From Gemmatimonadaceae bacterium (GTDB lineage Bacteria > Gemmatimonadota > Gemmatimonadetes > Gemmatimonadales > Gemmatimonadaceae), in assembly GCA_036273715.1 (NCBI GenBank), contig DASUHB010000063.1, positions 1 to 64,000 of the forward strand: a DNA stretch of 64,000 nt, given 5' to 3'. Both the position numbers and the translations under genes were made by a program. The stretch's first letter is position 1. Every line of letters begins with the position of its first letter. The notes beneath the pieces are model-generated. The model had not been told where the DNA came from and ran no database searches. It saw only the letters and a program-made list of their open reading frames with translations. This document shows, piece by piece, positions 57,763-60,392 of the stretch.

Positions 57763-58176
57763 ATGAAGGCATTCTTGGCACGGTGGCGTCCCGCGCACGT
57801 CGTGACGGCGTGGGTGGTCTATTGGATCGGATTGGCCGCCGTCACGTTGACGCCCACGATCCTGGCGATCAGCCGGGCGGCGAGCGCTCCGAAGGACACC
57901 GCGAACGTCTCGGTGTCGATGGCCAACACGGTGTTGAAGATCACCGTCACGATGTCCGGGCGGGTGGCGCACGAGGCCACCGCCTCGCTGGGCCAGATGG
58001 CGCTGTGGATCGGCGTTCCGCCGCTCGCGCTCTATGCGCTCTGGCTGTTCACGCGCCGGCGTCCGGGCGGCGCGCCCACTTCGTTAGGCGAAGGCGATCC
58101 CGATGTACTCCCGCGGCCCGCAGCGCCGGACGCCGCGGACACCTCTCACGTTCACTCGCGAGCTCCCCATGCGTGA
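57763..58176 (+). CDS. Small two-helix membrane protein of unknown function
   Basis: A 137-aa protein. Two hydrophobic segments are visible (VVTAWVVYWIGLAAVTLTPTILAI and MALWIGVPPLALYALWLF) around a short hydrophilic part (SVSMANTVLKITVTMSG), and the C-terminus is disordered. I do not recognise the family. The start is ATG 57763 because GGAGG (57753-57757) lies 5 nt upstream; an in-frame GTG at 57742 lacks a ribosome site. It is divergent from the efflux operon and shares its operator region, so it may be co-regulated by the TetR protein. Confidence 0.7.
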   Translation: MKAFLARWRPAHVVTAWVVYWIGLAAVTLTPTILAISRAASAPKDTANVSVSMANTVLKITVTMSGRVAHEATASLGQMALWIGVPPLALYALWLFTRRRPGGAPTSLGEGDPDVLPRPAAPDAADTSHVHSRAPHA

Positions 58177-58903
58177 CCTTGGCAGGCGTCGTCGCGGTTT
58201 CCTCACGGCAGTCGTCCTGCTCGCGGCCGGGGCGGTCCTGGCGGCCGCTCGACCGGCGTCCCGGCCTGCCGCCGCCGTTAGGCGGGCAGCGGCCGACACG
58301 ACGGAGGCGCCGTGGCGCGCCAAAGTGCGCGCCTTTGCCGAGGCGCACCTGCAGCACACGGCGTGGGGGCCGGCGCACGGCCGCCGCGACTACGAGATGA
58401 CCCTCGCGCTCGCCAGGGCCGAGGGCCTAACGGTGGATGACGACGCCCTCTACGCCGCTGCGTACCTGCACGACATGGGCGGTATCCCGCCGTATGCCGT
58501 GCCCGGCGTCGACCATGGCGACCGCTCGATCCAGCTCGTTGACAGCATCCTGCGCGATGCGGGTTTCCCGATGCAGAAGTCGGCGCTGGTGAAGGAGATC
58601 ATCGATCACCATCAGTATTACCGTCCGCCCGACACGCTCCGGGTGGCGGTGCTGTTTCGCGATGCGGACATCCTCGACTTCATGGGCGCGATCGACGTGG
58701 CGCGCATCATCTCGCTCACCACACGCGAGAAGTTCACGCCGGACCTGGCGCATGCGGTGGCGGTCATCAAGCAGCAGATGACGGAGATGCCCAAGCTGCT
58801 CCAGAGCGACGCGGCCAAGCGTGAAGGCGAGAAGCGCGCGCGCGAGATGCAGCAGTATCTCGATGCGCTGTCGGCCGAGTCAGACTCGCTCACCGTGCTC
58901 TAG
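58169..58903 (+). CDS. Exported HD-domain phosphohydrolase-like protein
   Basis: A 244-aa protein with a signal (GFLTAVVLLAAGAVLAA) and an HD domain. Metal-ligand candidates are His in AEAHLQHTAWGPAHG, the HD pair in AAYLHDMGG, His and Asp in VPGVDHGDRS, HH in IIDHHQYY and Asp in LFRDADILDFMG. HD enzymes hydrolyse phosphomonoesters or nucleotides and are usually cytosolic, so an exported one is uncommon. ATG 58169 overlaps the preceding gene by 8 nt. It ends just before the long repeat region; a (GA)6 tract follows the stop. Confidence 0.82.
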   Translation: MRDLGRRRRGFLTAVVLLAAGAVLAAARPASRPAAAVRRAAADTTEAPWRAKVRAFAEAHLQHTAWGPAHGRRDYEMTLALARAEGLTVDDDALYAAAYLHDMGGIPPYAVPGVDHGDRSIQLVDSILRDAGFPMQKSALVKEIIDHHQYYRPPDTLRVAVLFRDADILDFMGAIDVARIISLTTREKFTPDLAHAVAVIKQQMTEMPKLLQSDAAKREGEKRAREMQQYLDALSAESDSLTVL

Positions 58904-58980
58904 AGAGAGAGAGCTGCGTCTGGACGGGAGGATTGCCGCGGCTCAAAGGAGAGTGTGGTGCCCAGGGCGTAGGGCTGGCT

Positions 58981-59030
58981 GATACGCTCATTTGGACACG
59001 GACACGACCGGACACGACGGACACGACCGG
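58981..59030 (+). repeat. Outer inverted repeat, left core, with GGACACGAC units
   Basis: This 50-bp segment begins GATACGCTCAT and then contains three to four adjacent copies of the 9-bp unit GGACACGAC. Its reverse complement occurs at 59513-59562 with 47 of 50 identical positions by hand alignment. The similarity continues more loosely on both sides. Confidence 0.85.
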
Positions 59031-59220
59031 ATCGTTCGGCCGCAGTGCGTGCCTGATCTCGCGCGGTCCAAGTCTCAGTTTTTTTTTACGGGTCTTCGGG
59101 ATTTCGTGCGGGTGATCTCGAGGTGTGGGAAGGCGTACTGAGCCCTGAGGCGCGAGGGCAGTGACCGGGTGGCGAGGCTCACCCAAACGCCACATGGAGA
59201 CGCCTATGACAAAGGCTCAA

Positions 59221-59334
59221 AAGGATAACGACGAGGATGCAAGAGATGGGGTCGGCGCATCTCCACGCCTAACGACGCGTCGCTGAGGTTGCATATGCAC
59301 CGACCCCATCTCTGGTATCCTCGTAGTTATCCTT
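59221..59334. repeat. Central 40-bp hairpin (REP-like)
   Basis: The arms 59221-59260 and 59295-59334 are reverse complements at 36 of 40 positions, with a 34-nt loop. The inner ends carry GAGATGGGGTCGG / CCGACCCCATCTC, which resembles REP-type words found near IS200-like (RAYT) transposases; no such gene is in the window. The loop carries GCCTAACG (59267-59274), the dispersed word. Possibly a REP/MITE hairpin or a structured RNA. Confidence 0.8.
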
Positions 59335-59512
59335 CACACAGAGCGAAGAAGCTCTCCACACAGGCCTCCAGTTAGTCCTCACGTCGCTCTTCCAGCCGGA
59401 CATAGTGCGCCGACGTGTACCGACCTGCTTTCCCCGAAATTCCCCGAGGACCCTTCTTACAAGAAAACACCGGGTAGTTCACCAGCCCATTGAGAGGATA
59501 CAAACCGCCTCA

Positions 59513-59562
59513 CCTGTCGTGTCCGTCGTGTCCGGTCGTGTCCGTGTCGACATGAGCGTATC
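59513..59562 (-). repeat. Outer inverted repeat, right core
   Basis: The reverse complement of the left core at 58981-59030 (47/50). Differences lie in three positions next to the GATACGCTCAT end and at the other edge; the GACACGACC/GGACACGAC tandem part of 33 bases is unchanged. This conservation inside otherwise diverged arms suggests the tandem is the functional or recently copied part. Confidence 0.85.
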
Positions 59563-59735
59563 GGTCACCCTCCGCGCCTTGGGCAGAGGCAATCTCCTCC
59601 CCGTCCGATCCTTTTCGTATCCTTTGCACCCTCGACAGAGGAGCCGGATTTCCGGCCCCGACATCGCGCACGATTGCCCGCTGTCTCCGACAAGCGCGAA
59701 CGCAATTCAGACGCCGTTCTAAAATGTGGGTCCGC

Positions 59736-60392
59736 CTAACGGCCGTTACCCGCGGCGGCGCGTCGCGGCCGTCGTACTGCGGTCACTTTGCCGCTCGCTC
59801 CGCCGCCGCAGAAAAAACGATCGGCGCCATCTGACTCGAGTCCCGACACGCCGGTGCCGCGAGGCATGTCAATCGTCTCGAGCACGGCACCGGTTCGCGG
59901 ATCGACGCGTCGCACGTCGCTCTCGTCGTTCTCCCAGGTGGCGTGCCACAATTCGCCGTCAACCCATGTGACACCGGTAACGAACCGGTTCGATTCGATG
60001 GTTCGCTTGATTGCGCCCGTCTCCGGATCCACCTCGTAAATTTTCCGCTCCCGATATTGACCCACCCAGAGCGTGCCCTCGGCCCATGCGAGGCCGGCGC
60101 TGCCGTCGTTGGAAGGTGCCGGGATGGTTTTGACAACGCGGCCCGTTTCGGGATCAACTTTGTAAATTTGGTCACCGGCGAGCTGATACAGATGGGTGCC
60201 GTCGAACGCCGTTCCGGCATGTGACGGCACGTCGATCGAACGAATCGGGTCGCCGCTCGCCGGATCGATGGCGTGCAGCTTGTCGCCGGACGCGAGCCAC
60301 ACGTTGCGGCCGTCGTAGGTGACGCCGTTGACGCGTGCGATGCCGGGAAACGGGCCGTATTCCCTCACGATTTCGGCGCGCGATCGAGACAT
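59736..60392 (-). CDS. Beta-propeller protein (virginiamycin B lyase/glutamine cyclotransferase-like)
   Basis: A 218-aa protein composed of repeated propeller blades, e.g. VTYDGRNVWLASGDKLHAIDPASG, AFDGTHLYQLAGDQIYKVDPETG, AWAEGTLWVGQYRERKIYEVDPETG and TWVDGELWHATWEN. About five blades fit, fewer than a full seven-blade propeller, so it may be a partial propeller or a dimer. No signal peptide is seen. A ligand-binding or lyase role is unproven. ATG 60392, 9 nt after the regulator gene, so it is likely co-transcribed with it. The TAG stop lies in a GTTAGGC copy (59734-59741). Confidence 0.75.
   Translation of the reverse strand: MSRSRAEIVREYGPFPGIARVNGVTYDGRNVWLASGDKLHAIDPASGDPIRSIDVPSHAGTAFDGTHLYQLAGDQIYKVDPETGRVVKTIPAPSNDGSAGLAWAEGTLWVGQYRERKIYEVDPETGAIKRTIESNRFVTGVTWVDGELWHATWENDESDVRRVDPRTGAVLETIDMPRGTGVSGLESDGADRFFCGGGASGKVTAVRRPRRAAAGNGR

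Follow-up and report, generated by a model that had tools for sequence, protein, structure and literature searches.

Gene-less nested repeats of two kinds, probably mobile, between convergent genes in a draft Gemmatimonadota genome

Insertion sequences of the ISL3 family duplicate 8 bp of their target, and MITEs usually have an autonomous partner in the same genome, which is not strictly required for old copies. Bacterial MITEs are a known kind of element (PMC10969869), and the repeats described here, which like them are gene-less, inverted-repeat, multi-copy and intergenic, are a fresh example. They also resemble the REP/BIME palindromes associated with RAYT transposases (PMC2817692, PMC3733652) in being multi-copy intergenic palindromes; however, the units here are several times longer and no intact RAYT accompanies them, REP palindromes measuring 20-40 bp (PMC3733652). 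The words ISL3 and Gemmatimon- are absent from the MITE review PMC10969869, no paper on Gemmatimonas repeats was found in a literature search, and both repeat families appear to be undescribed in the literature searched.

The locus lies in a 64,000-nucleotide stretch of DNA, the window, on contig C63 of G000, a draft genome of 81 contigs (98.7% complete) whose relatives place it in all likelihood in the phylum Gemmatimonadota. An outer inverted pair and an inner palindrome occupy the interval between a convergent HD-domain gene and a beta-propeller-like gene (Table 1). The whole insert is a composite of nested mobile repeats of two kinds, both of which recur elsewhere in G000. Inspection of open reading frames found no transposase frame within the element, in agreement with the original prediction, made from the sequence alone, that it encloses no gene. 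The insert is very probably a nest of non-autonomous mobile repeats, in which an outer hairpin unit carries an ISL3-type MITE in its interior.

Table 1. Features of the repeat locus and its flanking genes, in window coordinates.
Feature	Position	Strand	Remarks
HD-domain gene	58103..58903	+	3' end faces element
Left arm of outer palindromic hairpin unit (GATACGCTCAT...GGACACGACCGGACACGACGGACACGACCGG)	58959..59030	+	73 nt, 86% inverted match to 59513-59585; matches copies genome-wide
Segment absent (give or take a few bases) from the orthologous locus in G004 (C319)	59012..59549		Locus comparison
T-tract flank left of MITE (TTTTTTTTAC)	59080..59089		Right flank from 59454 is TTCTTACA
Gene-less ISL3-type element (MITE), 364 bp; left end GGGTCTTCGGGATTTCG, right end CGAAATTCCCCGAGGACCC	59090..59453	+	Copies in G000 and sister species; ISL3 insertion sequences with matching ends
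114-nt palindrome inside MITE, 57-nt arms without spacer (GGATAACGACGAGGATG...)	59221..59334		81% complementary
Right arm of outer palindromic hairpin unit	59513..59585	-	Inverted partner of 58959-59030
Beta-propeller-like gene (Glu_cyclase_2/SGL hits)	59736..60392	-	3' end faces element

The predicted arrangement, a separate hairpin enclosed by a pair of inverted arms, is real and far above chance: in self-comparison the outer pair scores 84 bits and the inner palindrome 107 bits, against a mean of 22 and a maximum of 36 bits in 200 dinucleotide shuffles. The arms are shorter than the 190-200 bp first proposed, being alignable over 73 nt with a core of 58 nt at 90%. A gapped alignment lengthens the outer arm to ∼103 nt (58928-59030), and the stretch outside the core hardly beats chance, since 17 of 300 shuffles were equally good. 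The outer unit is a diverged member of the hairpin family CTACGCTCATGAAGACGCGGACA...TGTCCGCGTCTTCATGAGCGTAG, whose copies are usually ∼125 nt long and occur solo or within both MITE types (32 paired units were taken from the fetched loci). At two or fewer mismatches, G000 has 79 hairpin-arm matches and its sister species G004 has 21, compared with 1 and 0 in the controls and 0-5 in the other relatives. The family is thus abundant in G000 and G004 only and at background elsewhere. Together with four further places occupied by the 364-bp unit, these counts confirm the expectation that the repeats are abundant in the genome; the search proposed for further copies found them throughout G000 and in G004. 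The same prediction offered, as one possibility, two units inserted head to head, whereas the outer arms are better explained as belonging to a single palindromic hairpin unit, whose interior houses a different element, the ISL3-type MITE. The outer unit itself probably spreads as a MITE or as part of one. A further type of MITE, bounded by GGTA...CAGTTTGG and measuring 225 and 229 bp (L027 473-697; L055 1438-1666), contains a hairpin family member and is flanked, in comparison with G004, by the 8-bp duplications AGCGGCGT and ACGTGTGC.

The inner hairpin is likewise present as predicted, at a size of 114 nt instead of 40 bp. It makes up most of the interior of the MITE and folds with a minimum free energy of -71.4 kcal/mol (z -10.4), and a related GGATAAC motif occurs 34 times in the genome versus 0 in the control. 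Two GGATAAC...AAAAGGATG hairpin units also lie ∼300 bp apart at G000:C52:19400-21300. The MITE termini form inverted repeats that match imperfectly. The 364-bp unit recurs at 91-93% identity at four other, unrelated G000 sites (C69, C5, C48+C36 and C66+C1), the last two of which are split by contig ends, with their halves on separate contigs. The C48 and C36 halves probably belong together because contig C222 of G004 carries the flanks of both; the C66 and C1 halves are also likely to be a pair, and their G004 counterpart (C301) differs at its ends. The C69, C5 and C1 copies are truncated at one end, and G004 holds further copies, some of them orthologous. In a second subfamily the same left part is combined with a different hairpin (C40 twice, C15, C12, C1 and C55).

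Comparison with the ISL3 family supports the assignment of this element. It shares with ISL3 the ends GGGTCTTCGGG.../GGCTCTTCGGGAA..., an AT-rich target and, at a related copy, an 8-bp duplication, and ISL3 transposases with matching ends occur in the same bacterial family. One of these, a 453-aa frame in G033, adjoins an end that matches the MITE end over 37 bp at 86% (E 3.5e-5), and a 437-aa frame in G013 has ends that likewise match; the transposases G033:C6 and G013:C520 adjoin the ends GGGTCTTCGGGGATTCGTGTGGGTGATTTCGAGG and GGCTCTTCCGGGAATTCCGGGG. The MITE ends therefore resemble the terminal inverted repeats of an ISL3 element, as the G033 and G013 comparison indicates. Unlike an ISL3 insertion sequence, the window element has no transposase and an interior that is largely palindromic, and no intact partner was found in the G000 draft (98.7% complete), which holds a C-terminal relic only. 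Nor was an ISL3 partner found in the five other drafts of the same genus; genes of this kind may drop out at assembly gaps. At G000:C10:3599-4042, a 143-aa frame with an N-terminal part of Y1 (IS200-like) type and a C-terminal part of ISL3 type represents a relic chimera of two transposases.

Evidence of transposition comes from a related 332-bp element on C31, which has ISL3-type ends and is absent in G004. Its target, CGAAAAAA, is single at the empty site in G004 and exactly duplicated (8 bp) around the element, with a boundary ambiguous by one base (A-tract), and lies at an intrinsic-terminator-like hairpin. No clean duplication was found in the other comparisons (C50, C40, C28 and C69:87260). 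For the window copy, the proposed search for ends and target duplications located the ISL3-type ends; the flanks lack an exact 8-bp duplication, TTTTTAC/TTCTTAC matching at 6 of 7 positions. T- or A-tracts are seen beside many ISL3-type ends. With its multiple copies, ISL3-type ends and lack of genes, the element justifies the MITE reading put forward at the outset. It was most likely moved by an ISL3-family transposase, and the window copy itself probably arose by such transposition.

A nesting of this kind could have formed as follows. Between the two genes lies an outer palindromic unit, whose hairpin family is present dozens of times in G000. A T-tract of its interior holds a 364-bp MITE with ISL3-type terminal inverted repeats, which would have been mobilised in trans by a DDE transposase of the ISL3 family that recognises the MITE ends and presumably cuts an AT-rich 8-bp target. 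On this model the MITE would have arrived after the outer unit. Nesting is recurrent: judged by eye, at four of five places (C63, C5, C66 and C69) the MITE is located within hairpin-family arms or immediately next to them. At C48, the ISL3-type element abuts a GGACA-repeat tract. Irregular GGACA/TTGTCCG repeats also adjoin several elements (L007, L009 and L058), and G003 has TTGTCCG words downstream of its HD gene (L078).

The orthologous locus of the sister species retains a compact hairpin, GGCTGGCTGATACGCTC-loop-GAGCGTATCGGCCAGCC (G004:C319). An ancestral empty site was considered and rejected: two complete arms are present in other members of the family and a portion of one survives in G004, so that loss by deletion within the palindrome is likelier. 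A clean empty site for the window copy is thus not available from G004.

A different explanation, unlikely though credible, is that selection maintains the hairpins for a function as bidirectional transcription terminators or as RNA structures at 3' ends, their mobility being incidental. The folds are very stable, and the window locus and several of about a dozen solo places (C18, C20, C5:44597, C67 and probably C37; heuristic gene calls) lie between convergent genes; at the C37-equivalent site, G005 (C106; L159 871-965) has an unrelated long perfect hairpin of -51.7 kcal/mol. However, only 7 of 31 scored places lie between convergent genes, which is no excess (heuristic gene calls), the family is abundant in just two sister species, and compensatory change affects 1 of 28 pairs. 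A terminator role is possible. The large structured RNA suggested initially finds no support, with no Rfam match and, besides the single compensatory pair, a covariation term of +0.69.

Spread of REP/BIME-type repeats by a RAYT (Y1) transposase, which the original prediction had raised for the hairpin, is very improbable. The repeats are indeed palindromic, intergenic and multi-copy, but the unit of ∼125 nt far exceeds the 20-40 of REPs (PMC3733652), and hairpin family members sit inside elements with 8-bp duplications. No intact RAYT gene was found in G000, where all that remains of Y1 is a broken piece joined to an ISL3 fragment. A purely local duplication with one arm inverted would account for arms that are inverted copies of one another and is refuted by the many more copies in G000 and its sister species.

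The nest of an ISL3-type MITE within a hairpin unit provides a concrete case of nested MITEs in the poorly studied phylum Gemmatimonadota, with candidate ISL3 partners, and its recurrent nesting in hairpins is measurable. Such repeats also break draft assemblies, and several G000 contigs start or stop inside copies. A more speculative and rather doubtful idea is that ISL3-type elements prefer the hairpin family as a landing platform, homing to A/T tracts beside strong hairpins (loops, intrinsic terminators). If so, gene-less elements would pile up harmlessly at gene ends and would bring new hairpins, some of them perhaps terminators, to other sites in the genome.
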